Of a DNA stretch of 64,000 nt, positions 2,975-30,175 are shown piece after piece. Each line of letters begins with the position of its first letter. Within the stretch, counting starts at the first letter, position 1. The notes under the pieces were generated by a model. That model searched no databases, was not told where the DNA came from, and saw nothing but the letters and a program-made list of their open reading frames with translations. The stretch comes from Agitococcus lubricus (GTDB taxonomy: Bacteria > Pseudomonadota > Gammaproteobacteria > Pseudomonadales > Moraxellaceae), in assembly GCF_003051055.1 (NCBI RefSeq), contig NZ_QAON01000001.1, positions 186,001-250,000 of the forward strand. The letters run 5' to 3'. The position numbers were made by a program, and so were the translations under genes.

Positions 2975-5485
2975 ATGCCCCCACTGCTGCGCCATCGTTT
3001 ATTACGCTCAACCACAGGTTTGGTTGTCATCGTGATTTGTATTGTCGCGAGTGTGACACTGATTCTGGCGTTTCAACCCCAAATTCAACATCAACGGCAA
3101 CTGATAGAACAACATCAGCAACAAAAAGCGCAAGCGGTTGGTCAGCATTTAGAGCAAACCTTTTTTACCATTCAGCAGCAAGTAGTCAATCTTAATCAAC
3201 TCGCCTACCAATATCACCGTGACCCGTTAGCGATAGAAACCATTTTACGTACCTTATTGGGCGCATCGTCACCGCAAGCCATTTATGGCATGGGTGTCTG
3301 GTTTAGTCCGCAAAACCATCCGCAAAAAACCTCGTTATATGGTCCTTATGTCCATTTTAATGCCCAACAACAAGTAATTTTAACCTACGACTGGATGAAT
3401 CCTAATTATAACTATCCCAATCAGTCATGGTTCAAGACCATTATGAGTGCGCGTGGCGAGCAGCGTTGTACCCCACCTTATTTAGATATGGGCATGATTT
3501 ACGTGACCTGTGGACGGGCATTTCCTATGGGGGCAAGCCAACCCATGGGCGTTGTCACCGTCGATTTGGTCTTGCCACAAATAGAGGCAATGGTCACACA
3601 AGCCAGTACCCAGCCTTATGAACACGTATTTATCAGTGGCAATCAACAACAACTGATTGCCTTTCCTAATTCGGCTAAGGCATTAAAAAAATATTATCAA
3701 AACGACAAACAACAGAGTTTATTGGATATTTCTGTCAGCCACGTCTTAGCCCAACATAATAACCAATACCTAGCGTATGAACACCGCTTAAAAATGGGTT
3801 GGACAGTCCATGTACTCAGCCAAAAGTCGTGGTTAGAGCGCGAGATAAACCAACTCAATCAACAATTGTATTTATGGGTGATTTTTATTTGGTTTGCGGG
3901 GGCAATTACCGATGCAGTTTGGATGTATACCACACGCCGTATTCGTTCAGAACTACATCATAGTCTGACGTGGCGTAATGCCTTGAGCGATGTGATTCCA
4001 GCGGGGGTTTTTGCCGCCAATTTTAATGGCCAAGTGACATGGGCTAACCCTGTATTTAGTCAACTCACCCAACAAATTAAATATCCTTGCGAGCTCATTA
4101 ATTCGATTTACTTAGAAGACCAACCCAAGTTTCGCTTATTTTGGCATCGGGCCTGTTATGAACGTCGGTCCATGACCAGTGAATTTCGACTCAGTACCAA
4201 TGCCCGTAAGTGGGTACAAATTCGTTTGGTATTAGCCTTAAACAATGACAAAGAAGCGACAGCCATTGCAGGGACAATGGATGATATTACCGAACGGCGA
4301 CGTCACGAAGAAGAGTTAAGACACGCTAAAGAACAAGCCGAAGAAGCCAATAAGGCCAAAGGCGAGTTTTTGGCGATGATGAGCCACGAAATACGCACAC
4401 CCATGAATGGCGTCATTGGCATGTCTAGTCTCTTACTAGATACCCCTTTGTCCTCAGAACAACAAGAGTTTGCCCATACCATTCAAAATTCTGCCAACAT
4501 CTTACTCAAAATTATTAACGATATTTTAGATGTCTCTCGCATTGAAGCAGGCAAATTCCCCATTGAGCATTATCCGTTTCGCACCGAGAGCCTGATGAGT
4601 GAAATACTCACCTTACTCAGTCCTCTTGCCCAGCAAAAAGGCCTCGCCTTACGTTATGATAAAGCCGCAAATTTGCCTGCTATTTTAGTGGGTGACGCTG
4701 ACCGCCTGAAACAGGTGTTACTCAATCTGCTCAATAACGCACTCAAATTCACGGAACAAGGTAGCGTTAGCTTATTCGTAGACGTGAACCTCAGCGATGC
4801 GCAAAAAACCATCCTCACCTTTACCGTTAGCGATACAGGAATTGGACTGTCACAAGAGCAACAACAACGTATTTTTCAACCTTTTACCCAAGCCGATAGC
4901 TCAACCACACGACGGTACGGTGGAACAGGTTTAGGTTTAACCATTTGTCGGCACTTAATTGAGTTGATGGGCGGTGAAATTCATTGTGATAGCGACCTCG
5001 GCCACGGCTCACGTTTTTGGTTTAGACTCCCCTTTCAACATTATCAGGCAGCGCAATTACCTAGCGCCACCCGTAGCATGCCACAGGCGGTATTACGTAC
5101 AGATGCCATGATTTTGATTGTCGAAGATAACCCCGTCAATCAACAAGTGGTCGCCAAAATGCTACAAAAACTGGGCTTACATTATGATATTGCCCATAAT
5201 GGCCGTGAAGCCCTATCAAAACTCAGTACCTCTAATGCGTGGGATTTGGTACTGATGGACTGTCAAATGCCGATGATGGATGGTTTTGAAGCCACACGCC
5301 GTTGGCGTGAGCAAGAGCAGCTTTTAGGTCTTAAACGATTAACAATTATTGCCTTAACGGCGAATGCAATGCATGGCGATGAGGAACGCTGTTTAGCGGC
5401 GGGCATGGATGGTCATTTAGCCAAACCCATCGGCTTACAAAAACTCTATGAATTGTGCGCACAATGGTTAGCTGTGAAAGATTAA
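2975..5485 (+). CDS. Hybrid histidine kinase: periplasmic sensor, PAS, HisKA, HATPase, receiver
   Basis: About 836 residues. TM1 lies near residues 13-33, followed by a large periplasmic domain to about 295 with Cache-like features ([25 protein letters not shown]), then TM2, a PAS domain, and a HisKA H-box [12 protein letters not shown] with the phosphorylatable His near 471. The HATPase domain has its N box (LLNNALKFT), DTGIGL and GGTGLGL. A receiver domain carries the acceptor Asp in [11 protein letters not shown] near 762. No HPt domain follows, so phosphotransfer must go to a separate protein. An in-frame TTG at 2963 is a possible earlier start. No cognate regulator is adjacent, and the signal is unknown but probably a small molecule bound by the Cache domain. 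Confidence 0.9.
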
Positions 5486-22057: not shown

Positions 22058-23014
22058 ATGAAAAAACTACTTGGCTTAAGTGCTATGGCATTGGCAAGCT
22101 CTTTAGTATTCACCGCTCCTGCTGCTCATGCGGGTTATACAACCACAAAATATCCTACGTTATTGGTACATGGTATTTTAGGCTTCAAAAACTTTTGGGG
22201 TGCAGATTACTTCTATCAAATTCCTTCTACCTTGCAAGCAGACGGCGGCAAAGTGCATGTTGCTACCGTGTCTGCTGTGGGCAGTAATGAGTTACGTGGC
22301 GAGCAGTTAATCAAAGAAATGCAAGACCTAAAAGCCATTTACGGCTATGCAAAGTTTAACTTAATTGGCCACAGCCAAGGCAGCCCAACGTCTCGTTATG
22401 CTGCTGCTGTACGCCCAGACTTAGTTGCCTCCGTCACCAGCGTTGATGGCGTCAATAAAGGCTCTCGGGTTGCGGATGTGGTGCGTAAAGTAGCCCCTGC
22501 TGGGACGGTAACAGAAGCGGTATTCAAATCTGTGGCTGATGGTTTAGCTGCGTTTTTAACCTTTGTTTACGGCACACCCAACTTAGACCAAAGCTCGATT
22601 AATGCATTAAATAGTTTAACCACACAAGGTTTAACTACCTTTAATAGCAAATACCCAGCGGGTGTACCGAGCGGTTGTGGTGAAGGCGCCTATAGCCAAA
22701 ACTATGTTAAGAATGGTGTCACACACAAAGTAAACTACTACTCTTGGGGTGGAACACGCGTATTAACCAATGTACTTGACCCCTTAGATGGCGGCATTGG
22801 CTTACTTTCTGCTGCCTTCTTATTTAGCGGTGAGCAAAATGATGGTTTAGTCAGTGAATGTTCACAACGTTTAGGCAAAGTGATTCGCTCTAACTACGGC
22901 AATAACCACTTAGATGTGATTAATGGTTTCTTTGGGATTATCAATTTATTCGAAACAAATCCGAAAACCATTTATCGTACACACGCTAACCGTTTACAAA
23001 CAGCTGGCTTATAA
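22058..23014 (+). CDS. lip: Secreted triacylglycerol lipase, family I (Pseudomonas/Burkholderia type)
   Basis: A 318-residue extracellular lipase hydrolysing long-chain triacylglycerols. The Sec signal peptide ends at AHA-G (cleavage after residue 25). The mature protein starts with YPTLLVHGILGF (oxyanion region). GHSQG at 104-108 holds nucleophile Ser106, with Asp262 (EQNDGLVSE) and His284 (NNHLDVING) completing the triad; Cys207 and Cys268 are placed to form the family disulfide. Export fits Sec plus type II secretion. Family I.1/I.2 lipases normally need a foldase (Lif) encoded directly downstream, but none is here; the next gene is a MalT-like regulator 660 bases away. Confidence 0.96.
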   Translation: MKKLLGLSAMALASSLVFTAPAAHAGYTTTKYPTLLVHGILGFKNFWGADYFYQIPSTLQADGGKVHVATVSAVGSNELRGEQLIKEMQDLKAIYGYAKFNLIGHSQGSPTSRYAAAVRPDLVASVTSVDGVNKGSRVADVVRKVAPAGTVTEAVFKSVADGLAAFLTFVYGTPNLDQSSINALNSLTTQGLTTFNSKYPAGVPSGCGEGAYSQNYVKNGVTHKVNYYSWGGTRVLTNVLDPLDGGIGLLSAAFLFSGEQNDGLVSECSQRLGKVIRSNYGNNHLDVINGFFGIINLFETNPKTIYRTHANRLQTAGL

Positions 23015-23678: not shown

Positions 23679-26378
23679 ATGGTAATGACCATGGACTATA
23701 TACTAACGACCAAATTACTGATTCCTGCATTGCCTGCACAATTTATTGCGCGGCCTAGACTGATGTTGTCTGAATTCACTCGATTAACCTTAGTGTGTGC
23801 GCCTGCGGGTTATGGTAAAACTACCTTATTGACCGATTGGGCACGGCGTCTAGATATGCCTTGCGCATGGTTATCTTTAGATGCCAGCGATAATGATGCA
23901 CAGCAATTTATTATGCATCTGCTCAGTGCCATCCAAAATCCATGCCCAGCCTTCGCTCAAACAACCGCAACCACCCTCACTTCCACACAGTTACCTTCTA
24001 TCAATGGCGTTATTCGTACTCTCCTAAATGAGCTGTGCCGCTTACCTCAACATTTGGCGATTTTTATTGACGATTTACACTATATCGACCAACCGAGTAT
24101 TTATGACGCCCTCGCTTTTATGATTGACCACTTGCCGTCGCATATCCATGTCATTATTGCCAGCCGTAATATTCCACTGTTATCCCTATCTAGACTACGC
24201 GCACAACGGCAACTAACCGAGTTTTATACCGAAGATTTACGTTTTAATCGCCTCGAAGTTGCTGAATTTTGCAATCAAGCAATGCAACTCCATCTATCTA
24301 CCGTGTTAATCGATAGTTTAAGTGAGCGCACCGAAGGCTGGATTGTCGGTTTACAGTTAGCCGCCTTATCGCTTATCAATAATCCGCAGCCTGCGACATT
24401 TATTAATAGTTTTGCAGGTGATGACCGCCATATTACCGACTTCCTAATGGACGAAGTATTGCGCTTTCTACCTGCACATATTCAAGACTTTCTCTTAGAA
24501 ACCTGTTTGGTGAGCCAATTTAATGCTTCTTTATGTGATGCCATTAGACAAAGTCATAATAGCCGTGAACTGATAGACGAATTAGAACGTACCAATTTAT
24601 TTATCAGTCGCTTAGACCACAAACGTATTTGGTATCGTTATCATCATTTATTTGCCTCTTTATTAACGAGCCGTTTATCTCAACTCACACCCGACCGTGT
24701 GGTGGTGATTCATCATCGTGCCAGTTTATGGTTCAAAGAACACGGTTTATTAAGCGAAGCCATTCAGCATGGTATTAAAGCAGGCGATTTTGAGTTTGTT
24801 GCGAGTATCATGGAGGAGCACAGTGCAACGCTATTTTCTTTAGGACGTTTTACCACGGCATTGGCATGGGCATACCAACTTCCCGCACAGCTATTGGCTA
24901 AACACCCTAAATTGACCATGTTATGTGCTTGGGCTGGTTTAGTCATGGACAACCTCCCCGAAATCGAGCGCCATGTACGCGCCGCTAGTCAATGTTTAGA
25001 GCCATACCGTGAAGCACCGTTGGCTAGCCAAGAGCGGGCTTTATTTGGTCAACTCGCCCTGATTCGTAGTTGCCAGTATTGTTTAATGGGCGATGTAGAG
25101 CGTGCCGAAGCTTCGGTTATGGATGCCTTGGGTTCTTTATCGCCTAAACAAGTGTTGTATCGTGGCGCGTCTGTCTGCTTAGGCTTTTGTTATTATGCCC
25201 AAGGTGATTTAGCAAAGGCACAACGGTTATTTACAGAAAATGCGGCTATTCGAGATGCTAAATACAATTTAATGATTCCTATTTTTGCCACCTTAGGATT
25301 GGGACGTACCTTACTACTGCAAGGTCAACTCGTAAAAGCACAAGCGGTGTATTTACAAGCCTTAAGCGAGTGTCAAATATTGGGCTGGCAAGACGTACCT
25401 GTCTGTGGGATGTTATATTTAGGTCTGGGGGAACTCTATTATGAACAAGGTTTATGGCAAGACGCAGCCCGTGTTTTACAGTTAGGGATTGACATGACGG
25501 CTGCTGGCCACATGCAATATATCAATACGTGGGGACGCGTTTTATTTGCCCGTACACAACATCAATTATGCTTAGACATCACGGCATTAAGTAGCCAACA
25601 CGACAATTTATTACAAAGCTACTCAGGACGATATGTCGTTGAAACCCCGCCTCTTTCGGCAACCTTAGCACAATTTTGGCGACAAGAAGGCCGTTTAGAC
25701 TTATGGCAAAAATGGCAGCAACAAGCCCAACTACCAAGCCCAGAGCAACTCGCCTATGAACGACGTGCCGAATATTTGGTATTATTAGATGCATATTGCC
25801 AACAAAAACAAGCACAACTGGCACAGCCCCTAATTGATGCGCTGATGAGTCATCCTCATAGCTCGCAAAATATACGTAGTTTAATCGTCATTAAATTAAG
25901 CAGTATGCGTTTAGCACTGCAACAACAAGACCTTGAAAACGCTCGCCATCATTTACTCTATGCGCTTGCGTTAGTACAAGACCAACCCTTCAAGGAGCTT
26001 TTTCATCATTACTACGATGAGATAATGCGCTTAATTCAACACTATGCCTTAGATGTACAGCATTACCCCGCCATTTGTAAGATTGAAAGCTATCACGCAT
26101 ATCAGCAAACAATGACAGAAATCGCAACGGAGCCACGTATGACGATTAGCTCGTCTTTCGGTGACGTTCTCCTCTCACAACCCACCATCGTGTTAAGTAA
26201 AAAAGAGCGTCAAGTCGCTAAACAATTACTGACGGGCGCAACCAGCCAAGAAATTGCCGAGCAACTTTGTGTATCTTTAAGTACCATCAAAACGCATACC
26301 AAACATATTTATGCAAAACTGGGCGTTAATAAACGCTTACAGGCCATCGAACTGCTCGTTAAACTCAATCTTGCTTAA
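23679..26378 (+). CDS. LuxR-family transcriptional regulator, MalT-like (large ATP-binding LuxR)
   Basis: An 899-residue STAND-type regulator. An N-terminal P-loop NTPase has Walker A APAGYGKTTLL (about 46-56) and a Walker B-like LAIFIDDLHYID. Winged-helix and TPR-like helical repeats fill the middle (about 300-780), and a C-terminal LuxR HTH starts at LSKKERQVAKQLLTGATSQEIAEQLCVSLSTIKTHTKHIY. Such proteins sense an inducer through the TPR region and need ATP. Three ATGs lie at 23679, 23685 and 23691 with no decisive ribosome site. Its place after the lipase suggests it may regulate it, as related MalT-like proteins do for lipid or alkane genes, but this is inference. Confidence 0.9.
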   Translation: MVMTMDYILTTKLLIPALPAQFIARPRLMLSEFTRLTLVCAPAGYGKTTLLTDWARRLDMPCAWLSLDASDNDAQQFIMHLLSAIQNPCPAFAQTTATTLTSTQLPSINGVIRTLLNELCRLPQHLAIFIDDLHYIDQPSIYDALAFMIDHLPSHIHVIIASRNIPLLSLSRLRAQRQLTEFYTEDLRFNRLEVAEFCNQAMQLHLSTVLIDSLSERTEGWIVGLQLAALSLINNPQPATFINSFAGDDRHITDFLMDEVLRFLPAHIQDFLLETCLVSQFNASLCDAIRQSHNSRELIDELERTNLFISRLDHKRIWYRYHHLFASLLTSRLSQLTPDRVVVIHHRASLWFKEHGLLSEAIQHGIKAGDFEFVASIMEEHSATLFSLGRFTTALAWAYQLPAQLLAKHPKLTMLCAWAGLVMDNLPEIERHVRAASQCLEPYREAPLASQERALFGQLALIRSCQYCLMGDVERAEASVMDALGSLSPKQVLYRGASVCLGFCYYAQGDLAKAQRLFTENAAIRDAKYNLMIPIFATLGLGRTLLLQGQLVKAQAVYLQALSECQILGWQDVPVCGMLYLGLGELYYEQGLWQDAARVLQLGIDMTAAGHMQYINTWGRVLFARTQHQLCLDITALSSQHDNLLQSYSGRYVVETPPLSATLAQFWRQEGRLDLWQKWQQQAQLPSPEQLAYERRAEYLVLLDAYCQQKQAQLAQPLIDALMSHPHSSQNIRSLIVIKLSSMRLALQQQDLENARHHLLYALALVQDQPFKELFHHYYDEIMRLIQHYALDVQHYPAICKIESYHAYQQTMTEIATEPRMTISSSFGDVLLSQPTIVLSKKERQVAKQLLTGATSQEIAEQLCVSLSTIKTHTKHIYAKLGVNKRLQAIELLVKLNLA

Positions 26379-26385
26379 GAGGGTG

Positions 26386-26481
26386 TGTTACTTATGTTAC
26401 GCAGTTCTCCTATTTGTTACCGTAACACCACAAAGTGTTACTTAGACAGTGTCTAGATGTTACCTTTTAACGAAGGTAACA
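26386..26481 (+). promoter_or_regulatory. Cluster of TGTTAC/GTAACA sites, probable activator-binding region (CbrB-like UAS)
   Basis: Seven GTTAC/GTAAC words occur in 94 bases: at 26387, 26396, 26416, 26422 (inverted), 26437, 26459 and 26476 (inverted). Two form palindromes, TGTTAC-C-GTAACA (26415-26427) and TGTTACC-N10-GGTAACA (26458-26481). They lie about 105-200 bases upstream of the inferred start of the sigma54 transcript, the usual distance for an enhancer-binding protein. From memory, CbrB sites in Pseudomonas also use TGTTAC/GTAACA half-sites. An IHF-like AATCAATAAACTA (26512-26524) lies between this cluster and the promoter. Confidence 0.65.
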
Positions 26482-26558
26482 TCGCATATCACACAGAAAA
26501 AAAGACGCAAAAATCAATAAACTATTGATAAATATAGATTAAATTTTTTATTATAAAG

Positions 26559-26576
26559 TTGGCACGCTATCTGCAT
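26559..26576 (+). promoter_or_regulatory. Sigma54 (-24/-12) promoter
   Basis: TTGGCACGCTATCTGCAT matches the YTGGCACG-N4-TTGCW consensus with one deviation (CTGCA for TTGCA). GG (26561-26562) and GC (26573-26574) are exactly ten bases apart, as required. Transcription should start near 26586-26588. No ORF follows on this strand before 33 kb. Confidence 0.85.
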
Positions 26577-26586
26577 TATATATTGT

Positions 26587-26861
26587 GCGTAGCAGATAAT
26601 AATAAGAAGCACGCGTAACAACAAAAAGAAGACCGACAATAACAACAATAAACATGCTTGTAAGTCAGGATGACAATAAACAAGCCTTAACAAGAGTGGC
26701 AACTAACAATAATAAATTGTGCCGCTACAAGTAGAAAAACTGACGAAAAACGATAATAAGCGTCAACTTGCGAAAATATAACAACAATAGTCGCAGCAAC
26801 AATAAAAATAAGAGGCAATTTAGTGCAAACGTGGGAGCCACAAGCTCCCACGCCTCCTCTT
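26587..26861 (+). ncRNA. Candidate CrcZ-like CA-rich small RNA (Hfq/Crc titrating)
   Basis: About 275 bases downstream of the sigma54 promoter without an ORF on the plus strand. It is strikingly rich in A with scattered C and poor in T. AAnAAnAA-type clusters occur at 26598-26608 (AATAATAAGAA), 26617-26631, 26638-26652 (AATAACAACAATAAA), 26674-26682, 26705-26716, 26780-26788 and 26798-26812. This is the signature of Pseudomonas CrcZ/CrcY/CrcX, which carry five or more such CA motifs, are sigma54- and CbrB-dependent and sequester Hfq-Crc. A hairpin at 26830-26852 may end it. The start and end are inferred. No homologue can be confirmed without a search. Confidence 0.7.
26810..26861 (+). terminator. 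Two-tier hairpin at the end of the CA-rich RNA
   Basis: CGTGGGAGC (26830-26838) pairs with GCTCCCACG (26844-26852) over a CACAA loop, and AAGAGG (26810-26815) can pair with CCTCTT (26856-26861). A T7 run follows only at 26871, inside the gloA 3' end. It lies between convergent transcripts and may serve both. Confidence 0.6.
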
Positions 26862-26867
26862 AAACTC

Positions 26868-27251
26868 TCATTTTTTTCCCAAAAGCTCAATTTTATAACC
26901 GTCAGGGTCTTCAACAAACGCTAAAATAGTTGTGCCATGCTTCATTGGCCCTGCTTCACGAACCACCTTAGCACCTGCCGCTTTAATTCGTTCGCAGGCT
27001 TGATAAACATCGTCTACTTCCAACGCAATATGGCCATAAGCCGTCCCTAATTCATAGGCTGTTGTATCCCAATTATGGGTTAACTCCAGTGCTGCTTGCT
27101 CGCTTTCGTCGGCATATCCCACAAATGCTAAGGTAAATCGGCCTTCAGGATAGTCTTTTTGCCGTAATAAACGCATCCCTAAAACCTCTGTATAAAAAGC
27201 GATGGAACGCTCTAAATGAGTCACTCTTAACATCGTATGTAAAATACGCAT
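26868..27251 (-). CDS. gloA: Lactoylglutathione lyase (glyoxalase I)
   Basis: A 127-residue metalloenzyme converting the methylglyoxal-glutathione hemithioacetal to S-lactoylglutathione. Metal ligands are in place: His in [10 protein letters not shown], Glu in ALELTHNW, His in YGHIALEV and Glu in YKIELLGKK. The start at 27251 gives the family N-terminus [17 protein letters not shown]; a second ATG lies one codon earlier and GGGGTG serves both. The frame extends further upstream over the 3' end of the preceding kinase gene but without family similarity. It starts 33 bases after that kinase and may be cotranscribed. Confidence 0.96.
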
Positions 27252-27283
27252 CATACACCCCAAAAAATATAAAAAACGAAAGA

Positions 27284-30175
27284 CTAGGAATTGTGCCAAA
27301 ACAACTGCATCAACAATTGTTTTAAGCGTTCAAAGGCGAGTGGTTTGGTCAGAAAATCGTCCATTCCCGACTTCAAACAACGCAATTGTTGTTCTCGCAT
27401 AGCATGTGCCGTTAATGCGACTATCGGTATAGTACGTAGTTTTTGCGTTTGCTCAAACTCTCTAATAGCAACTGTTGCACCGTAACCATCCAATCTTGGC
27501 ATTTCACAATCCATTAAAATGGCATCATAGGCAAGTGGCTGTTGTTGATAATACTGCACGGCTTGTAAGCCATCTTGGGCGATATCTACATGAATCGCTA
27601 GTTTTTTTAACATGCCCGAAATCACCATTTGATTGACGGCATTATCTTCGGCAATCAATAGTCGTTTACCTGCCAGTGCTTGTTGAATGCTATCGTGGTC
27701 TTGGCGTTTATCATGTTGCGAGCGGTAGTGCTGTTGACAACCTAAAAGTTTTAATAAGGCATCTCGTAACATATTGGCCGATGTCGGCTTTTGGATAACT
27801 AAGGTTAAACCAACCGCAGCCAATTCGTCCTGACTGGGCGGCATACGCATGGCGGTCAATAAAATACGTTTAGTCTGGCTGAATGTAGGGTCTTGAGCCA
27901 TTTTTTCTGCTAACTCTAAACCTGTCATACGCGGCATGCGCATATCTAAAGCAGCGATATCATACGGCTCGTTGCGTTGTGTGGCCTGACGCATGAGTTG
28001 CAGTGCATGTTCGCCATCATGTACGGCCTCCGCAATCATGCCCCATGCTCGTGCTTGTTCGGTCATAATTTGAGTAAAGTCAATCGAATCATCGACAAAT
28101 AAAATACGTTGATTTTGTAAGGCCGTCAGCGGGACAAAATGGTCGTTAATATAATCGTGACTGGCGGTTTGATACGGTATTCGGACACTAAACAGTGTAC
28201 CCTGCCCTATCTGACTCTGTACGGTCATGTGTCCTTGCATTAAATCAATCAAACGCTTACTGATACTCAAGCCCAAGCCTGTACCGCCAAACTGACGGGT
28301 GGTTGACGCATCGGCCTGATGAAATGCAGTAAATAACCGTGTTTGTTGTTCTTCGGTCATACCTATGCCTGTGTCACTCACCTCAAAGCACAACTCGGCT
28401 TGCTGCTGATTTTCTTCTGCATGCACCCGCAAGCTAATACAACCACGATGGGTAAATTTGAAGGCATTACTGAGTAAATTGAGTAATACTTGTCGCAAAC
28501 GTGTGGGGTCAGACTTAATAAATAATGGCGTCTGCGGCTCTATAGAGGCTAAAAACTCTAACTGTTTTTGTTCGGCGGTTAAGGAAAAAATTGAGGCGCA
28601 TTCTAGCAGTAACTTATCTAAGTCCATATCGATTAACTCAATATCCATTTTGCCTGCTTCAATTTTTGAGTAATCCAATATGTCATTGATAATATTGAGT
28701 AATGCACTACCTGAGCTATGAATCACTTGCAAATACTGTTGTTGCTGCGGGGTTAATTCGGTATTTTGTAAGAGTTCGGTCATGCCTAATACACCATTCA
28801 TAGGCGTGCGTATTTCATGGCTCATGGTCGCTAAAAATAAACTTTTGGCGCGACTTTCGCTTTGCGCTTGATAAATCGCTTGTTTGGCTTTGATTTCTTC
28901 TTCTTGGGCTTTTAATTTAGTTTGTAAATGCTGTTCGCGTTCCGCATTCGCTCGGCGCTCTTCATTCATTAACAAAAGTTGTGCTTGTTGCTCTTGTTGA
29001 CGACTGAGGTTAATTCTATCGGCTAAGGCAAAAGATAATAGCAATACCTCACATAATTCCCCTATCTGTAATGCAATATTGGTTAAGGTGGTTTTGGGAA
29101 TAAGATGTAACTGGCTTAAATCGTAGAGCAGCACCATCGCCGCCAAAAACAACCATGCACACACAAAAAATCGAGCCGCTCTATTGCCTGCACGCCAATT
29201 CAAAATACCCGTTGTAATTAATAATAAGGCTACCCCCGCAGACAAAACGATGGTGATAATAATCATTTGCCGATACGGCATTACACACGCCAGTCCCGCT
29301 ATCAGTATCATCAATAACATATAGGCTATTAATAGACGGTCTATGCGCGGATTAAACCGTTGTGTATGCAAAAAATAGCGACTAAACAGCATACTTAGAA
29401 AGAGTGCTAACGCCAAAATGATGACAATGGCTTTGTTATTCCATATCGTCAAGGTTGGCCATAGGTATTGAAACGTCAGGCCATCCACTGTCGTCAACAG
29501 CAGGGTATAGACCATGACAAATGCAACATAAATTAAGTAGCTTTTTTCGCGTACCGATAACCAAATAAAAAAGTTATATGCCGCCATAATCAAAAAAGCG
29601 CCATATAAAACCCCTAATAATAGTTGCCGATGATGGTCATACTCTTGAAAACGATGTGACTCCCATAAGCTAAGAGGGACTTGCAAGCCGCTAGTACTGA
29701 CAACACGAATGTAAAGGGTATAGTTTTTCTCAGGCTCTACATGTAAAGGAACTAAGAATAGTCGATGCCGAATGGGACGTTGGTCAAACGCAAAACGGTC
29801 GCCTAATTGATACGATTGACGTAATTCAGACTGGCCTTGTACTAAATACAGTTGAATGTCGTCTAATAAGGGATAACTAATTTCTAATAAACGGTCTATC
29901 GCTTGTGGATGGTGATGATGTAAATTGACTTTTAGCCAATAAGCAGAGGTCGAATATCCAAAATAGGGTTTTTCTTGGGTTTGTGCTTGCCAGTCTTGGC
30001 GTGTTGCAACTTGCTGCCATGTCAGTTGTTGGCTTTTATCCTCAATATACCGCAAGGATTTAGCCAGATTTTGTTGCTCAACCGCAACATCAACAGACGA
30101 TACAAGGTCTGCCCAACTGGTAGAGCATAACAAACACCACACACACCAGACGCGACAAAACCACGCTATAGGCAT
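27284..30175 (-). CDS. 7TMR-DISM hybrid histidine kinase with two receiver domains
   Basis: A 963-residue sensor. After a signal peptide (to about residue 22) comes a periplasmic DISMED2-like beta-sandwich (about 30-170; [18 protein letters not shown]). Seven membrane helices follow (about 180-385; [21 protein letters not shown]), then a coiled-coil linker, HisKA ([20 protein letters not shown]), HATPase ([25 protein letters not shown]), receiver 1 (LFVDDS, ALDMRMP, IQKPT) and receiver 2 ([24 protein letters not shown]). No HPt domain. DISM proteins are thought to sense carbohydrate or similar ligands. The partial gene at the left edge appears to have the same kind of sensor. Confidence 0.93.

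Follow-up and report, generated by a model that had tools for sequence, protein, structure and literature searches.

Pseudomonas uses a CrcZ-type RNA to lift its 'best food first' rule. The basis described in Pseudomonas and Azotobacter is CbrB-dependent transcription of the RNA at carbon limitation, sequestration of Hfq and relief of repression (PMC6292655). The order cbrA-cbrB-crcZ is highly conserved in both genera (PMC8871633). According to a 2022 review, CbrAB occurs in no family but Pseudomonadaceae and its only hosts are Pseudomonas and Azotobacter (PMC8871633), and a 2018 paper likewise describes it as exclusive to Pseudomonadaceae (PMC6296734). Transcripts of cbrAB have been counted in ocean microcosms, with no host assigned in the accessible text (PMC5073097). 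Our literature search, which most subscription journals fall outside, found no report of the circuit beyond Pseudomonadaceae. We looked at 80 named cbrA loci, most of them from Pseudomonas: pcnB follows cbrB within 2 kb at 77, and a sigma54-type word occurs behind cbrB at 74. In Pseudomonas the gene order continues with folK-panBC.

The window analysed here, a 64,000-nucleotide stretch of the Agitococcus lubricus genome, very probably holds a crcZ-type gene, one whose CbrB- and sigma54-driven RNA would titrate Hfq. The candidate RNA (26586-26861, forward strand) lies in a 489-base gap between the stop codon of a MalT-like regulator gene (23679-26378, forward) and the end of gloA (26868-27299, reverse), whose product is a glyoxalase by Pfam. 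The gap contains five TGTTAC and two GTAACA sites, a sigma54 promoter, an A-rich stretch without a spanning open frame and a GC-rich hairpin. The MalT stop codon ends 7 bases 5' of the first TGTTAC, and the regulator is on the same strand as the candidate RNA. Judging from the promoter, the RNA would start at 26586/26587; judging from the hairpin, it would end at about 26861.

The locus resembles CrcZ (RF01675; Pseudomonas, Azotobacter) in its sigma54 promoter with a GTTAC-type enhancer about 80-145 bp upstream, in its non-coding RNA with repeated AAN clusters and a GC-rich 3' hairpin, and in having a homologue behind cbrB in the same genus. It differs in length (about 275 bases against 398 model positions), in its site between MalT and gloA, and in its Rfam score (24.6 of 95 bits). 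CrcY and CrcX, additional copies known from Pseudomonas and Azotobacter, likewise combine a CbrB-type promoter with CA clusters away from cbrAB; they coexist with crcZ, unlike the window copy, which is the only one found in its genome (PMC8871633). Another relative by description is sRNA99 of Acinetobacter baumannii, which has A-rich Hfq motifs and is compared with CrcZ by its authors; it is set apart from the window RNA by its three potential motifs, a distinction drawn from the published description and not from sequence (PMC12802169).

The promoter, TTGGCACGCTATCTGCA at 26559-26575 (forward), has the GG-N10-GC arrangement and is the single occurrence of exact TTGGCAC-N6-TGCA in the whole window. 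If one mismatch is allowed, the window has four such words where 2.45 are expected, and the promoter word would not be convincing by itself. Its TTGGCA and TGC are conserved in an alignment of seven units, the window's included. Upstream, the proposed CbrB sites form an array at 26386-26481 (forward), with TGTTAC at 26386, 26395, 26415, 26436 and 26458 and GTAACA at 26422 and 26476. Such sites are rarer than chance in the window (29 against 44.7 expected), and 7 of the 29 crowd into these 96 bases directly 5' of the promoter, with another at 26615. The three nearest forward sites are spaced at 21-22 bp, with starts that lie 101-144 bp ahead of the promoter. Every unit in the seven-unit alignment has three sites at that spacing before its promoter, and 20 of the 21 read TGTTAC; the exception is TGCTAC in the second copy of G031, a genome of the same genus (labels of this kind are our own for genomes, loci and families). 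A CbrB subsite and a spacing of 20-25 bp have been described (PMC6296734). At the level of sequence, the locus has a sigma54 promoter preceded by phased CbrB subsites. All three of the window's phased sites are forward, whereas in Pseudomonas loci the usual array, at comparable distances, is made up of one forward and two reverse sites; to judge from these sites, the Moraxellaceae arrangement is a variant of the Pseudomonas array. Searching the A. lubricus genome for the enhancer-promoter pattern gave one match, the studied locus, while reversed controls gave two.

The RNA itself has stops in all three forward frames of 26587-26861 and is dense in A-rich repeats. The word AANAANAA starts at 14 positions in this interval; dinucleotide shuffles gave a mean of 2.6 (sd 1.8, largest 12), with none of 2000 reaching 14. 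Among 5098 windows of 275 bases on both strands, the interval ranks best for this word, and distant windows have at most five. The 14 starts fall into six clusters on the forward strand, several AAN clusters in a non-coding RNA being a feature of the functional class. Cluster 1 (AATAATAAGAA, 26598-26608) lies inside the loop of a predicted 5' hairpin, and clusters 2 (26617-26630) and 3 (26638-26651) follow it. Cluster 4 (26705-26715) is held in the loop of a hairpin with stem AGUGGC/GCCGCU (26695-26726), and in the single-sequence fold part of it pairs within that loop. After a further hairpin, UGACG/CGUCA with an A-rich loop (26741-26765), come clusters 5 (26780-26787) and 6 (26798-26811) and the GC-rich 3' hairpin, CGTGGGAGC-CACAA-GCTCCCACG (26830-26852). 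Six A-rich clusters are also given for A. vinelandii CrcZ/Y in a figure legend (PMC6292655).

The predicted fold of 26587-26878 beats 200 of 200 shuffles (z -3.8). In four same-genus RNAs, the AGUGGC/GCCGCU hairpin has one pair changed on both sides, one changed on one side, and one broken in one of the four; G012 is gapped here. RNAalifold on five RNAs gave three hairpins, two with A-rich loops, and 6 of 21 pairs changed on both sides with pairing kept; the first hairpin is absent in the G012 row and the second is poorly formed in it. Five sequences are few, and this covariation would give the hairpins modest support. A terminator scan of the locus called no terminator; a T run at 26871-26877 starts 18 bases past the hairpin stem.

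An earlier note, made from the window's letters, had proposed most of this layout. Its near-consensus -24/-12 promoter is the exact sigma54 word above, its upstream TGTTAC sites are the array of seven, its roughly 275 bases without an ORF are interrupted in every forward frame, and its terminal hairpin is in place. Of the seven repeat clusters it listed, those at 26598, 26617, 26638, 26705, 26780 and 26798 hold under the strict AANAANAA rule and the one at 26674 fails it. Its central idea of a CrcZ-like RNA gains support from the Rfam match, from the partner genes and from homologous units that relatives carry behind cbrB, all given below.

The same word was looked for near start codons in the window as a mark of Hfq targets, with no clear enrichment: 4 of the 44 predicted genes have it, compared with 5.4% of random 60-mers. 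At the lipase gene (22058-23014) it lies at -43 and -40 before the start. The lipase gene lipA is a reported CbrB target in P. alcaligenes (PMC8871633).

Scanned over the 3.74 Mb A. lubricus genome, with 94 of 223 first-look candidates scored, RF01675 gave one match, at the locus (24.6 bits, E 1.9e-4). When 26300-27000 was compared with 4227 Rfam families, only two matches reached E <=1, both to CrcZ, the better at E 1.5e-4. The better match spans 26768-26863 and places the last CA cluster and the 3' hairpin opposite their CrcZ counterparts. The Rfam gathering cut-off (95 bits) was reached neither by the window RNA nor by the RNA behind cbrB in G031, which matches CrcZ across all model positions (37.4 bits, E 2.3e-6). 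Formal RF01675 membership fails on this measure, and homology appears supported through the nearer relative. Elsewhere in the family, at E <=0.1, the model matched none of the G031 second copy, the G004 copy and L065, and 8 of 10 other unit-carrying loci went unmatched, with matches at L056 (E 0.0024) and L064 (E 0.025). It gave no match in L016, L065, L017 and L004, nor, at E <=0.1, in five named loci (Bermanella, two Alcanivorax, DC_out160 and 42_54_T18). Bermanella and DC_out160 show the promoter and CA words and were left out of the CrcZ match counts.

Homologous units were found in relatives. A search of 199 family genomes with the window DNA matched 14, that of A. lubricus included. Outside it, long matches came from members of its genus alone: G031 has two, and G004 has one that is split into three pieces. 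The genus has a fourth genome, G020 (88% complete), in which no RNA was matched. In most of the remaining 11 genomes the matches were short and AT-rich and were not used; those in L007 and L014 lie behind cbrA on the same contig. A 28-base match on G004:C6 was rejected as no RNA but a sigma54-like promoter upstream of a gene that looks, by eye, like a pilin gene.

In G031 the gene order is gluQ-cbrA-cbrB-RNA-pcnB-folK-panB-panC; NCBIfam names gluQ, pcnB, folK, panB and panC above cut-off, and cbrB only as an NtrC-class regulator. The second RNA copy of G031 sits on another contig. G004 is rearranged: its RNA still adjoins pcnB, with cbrAB on another contig. Between the window RNA and the G031 RNA behind cbrB, identity is 71% in the search alignment and 65% in the full alignment. 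Counted over aligned positions, identity to the window unit is 65% for that copy, 64% for the G004 copy and 61% for the second G031 copy, values so close together that we name no source for it.

Across 29 family loci, the region behind cbrB has the strict promoter and CA words in 19, a near-match in one (L065) and no unit in nine, A. lubricus among them. Its own cbrB-pcnB gap of 278 bp contains no promoter, TGTTAC, GTAACA or CA word. Conversely, G031 and G004 keep the window's order lipase-MalT-gloA-hybrid kinase, and the space between MalT and gloA, 9 bp in G031 and 67 bp in G004, holds no RNA. The common place of the crcZ-type gene in the family is behind cbrB, where the G031 homologue lies, and the window holds a crcZ-type gene at a new site. 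The earlier note was right that the RNA follows a MalT-like regulator and not cbrB, and its suggested search of related genomes for the promoter and CA motifs recovered the unit in the same genus and behind cbrB elsewhere. Its view of the RNA as a novelty of this genome gives way on the same evidence: such units are common behind cbrB in the family, and it is the window copy that is displaced. Most simply, the unit would have moved away from cbrB to its present place between MalT and gloA; a duplication whose original copy was later lost would explain the difference equally well. Searches of the A. lubricus genome with the window DNA, the G031 second copy, RF01675 and the enhancer-promoter pattern found no second copy, and diverged copies could escape them.

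Several of the loci behind cbrB have features of their own. G003 carries two tandem promoter-RNA-hairpin units behind one cbrB (L061:3317-3473 and 3892-4042). The cbrB-pcnB gap of L161 (Bermanella sp. 47_1433_sub80_T6) is 1801 bp long with three sigma54-like promoters, two of which precede long CA-rich stretches that resemble each other in sequence; a CrcZ-type gene appears to have multiplied here. L083 and L142, in records titled Pedobacter sp. and Pantoea sp., have cbrAB and a crcZ-type unit and are probably mislabelled.

The partner genes that define the functional class are present. The earlier note had left cbrAB and rpoN to a genome search; A. lubricus encodes cbrA, cbrB and rpoN, and also hfq. 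Its CbrA is 90% identical to that of G031 over 985/993 residues, and cbrB lies directly behind it (85% identical to G031 cbrB). The best named Pseudomonas matches to this CbrA are about 52% identical over the full length. The protein has an SLC5-STAC transporter domain fused to a histidine kinase with HisKA and HATPase domains. Its residues 2-596 align with the Pseudomonas CbrA structure 10ed (E 6e-192), and 10ED is described as CbrXA SLC5-STAC (PMC13022988). No NCBIfam model names this CbrA or CbrB above cut-off. Within the family, CbrA-type matches (at least 36% identity over most of the protein or as fragments) occur in 30 of 199 genomes and 9 of 16 genera. The other kinase matches listed are about 30% identical and cover approximately the N-terminal half of proteins some 1140-1200 residues long, and we take these to be of the CrbS type. 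The family's by far most sampled genus (g15, presumably Acinetobacter) has such partial matches of about 30% and no CbrA-type match among the matches listed.

The state of Crc is less clear-cut. One ExoIII-fold protein was found in the genome, adjoining pyrE, which we take to be the place of crc in Pseudomonas. NCBIfam names it exodeoxyribonuclease III, above cut-off, and its nearest structure is 2jc5 (E 8e-93; presumably the Neisseria exonuclease), ahead of Crc 4jg3 (E 1e-62). It keeps all six catalytic residues checked (N7, E35, D147, N149, D246 and H247), where the Pseudomonas and Stutzerimonas Crc proteins checked have D, S, Y and Q at E35, D147, N149 and D246. These ExoIII residues are kept in the best homologues of all 12 Moraxellaceae genomes tested (L163:1489-2259, L166-L175, L177 and L178). 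Most are lost in the Crc of two Pseudomonas, one Stutzerimonas and UMS_A.mb.24, and in the Bermanella homologue. The crc that the earlier note proposed to look for has a pyrE-linked counterpart, and since this keeps its nuclease residues, a Pseudomonas-type partnership of Hfq and Crc cannot be assumed. Either this protein is a Crc that has remained a nuclease, or the genome lacks Crc and the RNA would work through Hfq alone. In another genome, G203 (L136, Alcanivorax limicola), cbrAB is present and cbrB is followed by an A-rich stretch, but a Crc-like homologue was not found at E <=1e-15.

Beyond the family, we searched 390 genomes drawn evenly from the order Pseudomonadales as defined by the genome collection. 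The collection's order is wider than the classical Pseudomonadales. CbrA was found at E <=1e-100 in 276 of the 390, and RF01675 matched at E <=0.001 in 71 of 390 (apparently the same sample, as the handles agree). The order-wide search used stricter filters, scoring three candidates per listed genome, and gave no match in A. lubricus. Of the 71 matches, 19 are above cut-off, 16 of them in f21 and 3 in f2; we take f21 to be Pseudomonadaceae because most strong CrcZ matches fall there. Positions of both elements were listed for 54 genomes; 49 of these, 16 in f21 and 33 in seven other families, have the RNA match on the strand of cbrA, 1610-1894 bases behind it. This distance, anchored on cbrA and not on cbrB, is what would be expected if the RNA lay just behind cbrB. 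The five exceptions are G207, whose match is near a contig end, and four f8 genomes with the match elsewhere; the 17 matches without a position comparison may include chance matches. CbrA and CrcZ-like RNAs at the expected distance recur across the order, contrary to the published view of a circuit confined to Pseudomonadaceae.

Two further observations come from the order-wide set. In the f8 genomes G213, G364, G385 and G405 the CrcZ match is on another contig or about 57 or 187 kb from the end of cbrA, so displaced CrcZ copies may have arisen more than once. In G338, G575, G312 (f43), G389 and G565 (f16), otherwise full-length CbrA frames carry a single internal stop, TGA in four of these genomes and TAA in G565.

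On the reading we prefer, exhaustion of good carbon sources would lead the sensor CbrA to phosphorylate CbrB, which would bind the phased TGTTAC sites and have sigma54 RNA polymerase make an untranslated RNA of about 275 bases. Its A-rich AAN repeats, in loops and single strands, would bind Hfq and pull it off target mRNAs, and catabolite repression would be relieved. The whole unit of enhancer, promoter and RNA would act from between the MalT-like regulator and gloA, with the genome's own cbrB gap empty. Titration of Hfq seems the likeliest action of the RNA. Many Hfq-bound RNAs work by pairing, and we leave a small chance that this one, likewise driven by CbrB and sigma54, mainly base-pairs with a few mRNAs; the hairpins between the A-rich stretches, kept in four same-genus RNAs, would suit such a role. 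Many of the invariant columns, however, are A residues of the AAN repeats, alongside hairpins with A-rich loops, and six repeat clusters seemingly exceed what one Hfq landing site would need.

Whether the unit is in use at all is a separate matter. Its position is absent in the two relatives checked and its CrcZ score is weak, as would be expected of a second-site copy, moved or copied, that is dead or dying; we rate this as a slim chance, since promoter, phased enhancer, CA clusters and 3' hairpin are all intact and this is the sole copy found in a genome that has kept cbrA, cbrB, rpoN and hfq. It is very improbable that the stretch is a 5' leader or a long 3' end of a neighbouring gene. A gloA leader does not fit, as gloA runs on the opposite strand, with its end at 26868; MalT, upstream on the same strand, makes read-through possible, and read-through forms are known in P. 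putida (PMC6292655), but the unit has its own promoter and its homologue stands elsewhere in relatives. Finally, the locus could be A-rich intergenic DNA that just happens to adjoin a sigma54-like word, and with one mismatch allowed the promoter pattern does occur at chance level in the window; the CA excess, the fold z-score, the single Rfam match and the homologous units behind cbrB in relatives leave this idea next to no credit.

With an Hfq-titrating RNA as the preferred reading, the new site would have consequences for its supply. In P. putida, basal CrcZ comes from cbrB read-through, and processed read-through forms of CrcZ and CrcY are described (PMC6292655). At the MalT-gloA site, basal RNA made by cbrB read-through would be lost, and read-through from MalT could replace it.

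We tentatively propose, at somewhat short of an even chance, that the CbrAB-CrcZ circuit did not arise within Pseudomonadaceae but is ancestral to Pseudomonadales as the collection defines them and older than the change of Crc from nuclease to RNA-binding co-repressor, that the Moraxellaceae RNA regulates Hfq alone or with a nuclease Crc, and that the gene is a self-contained unit that has been repeatedly moved, multiplied or lost with its CbrB/sigma54 control kept. The circuit's origin becomes testable in organisms whose Crc partner still looks like a nuclease, and there the effect of the RNA on Hfq could be separated from its effect on Crc. An intact decoy-RNA gene at a new site would also be an uncomplicated example in which to study the movement of regulatory RNA genes.
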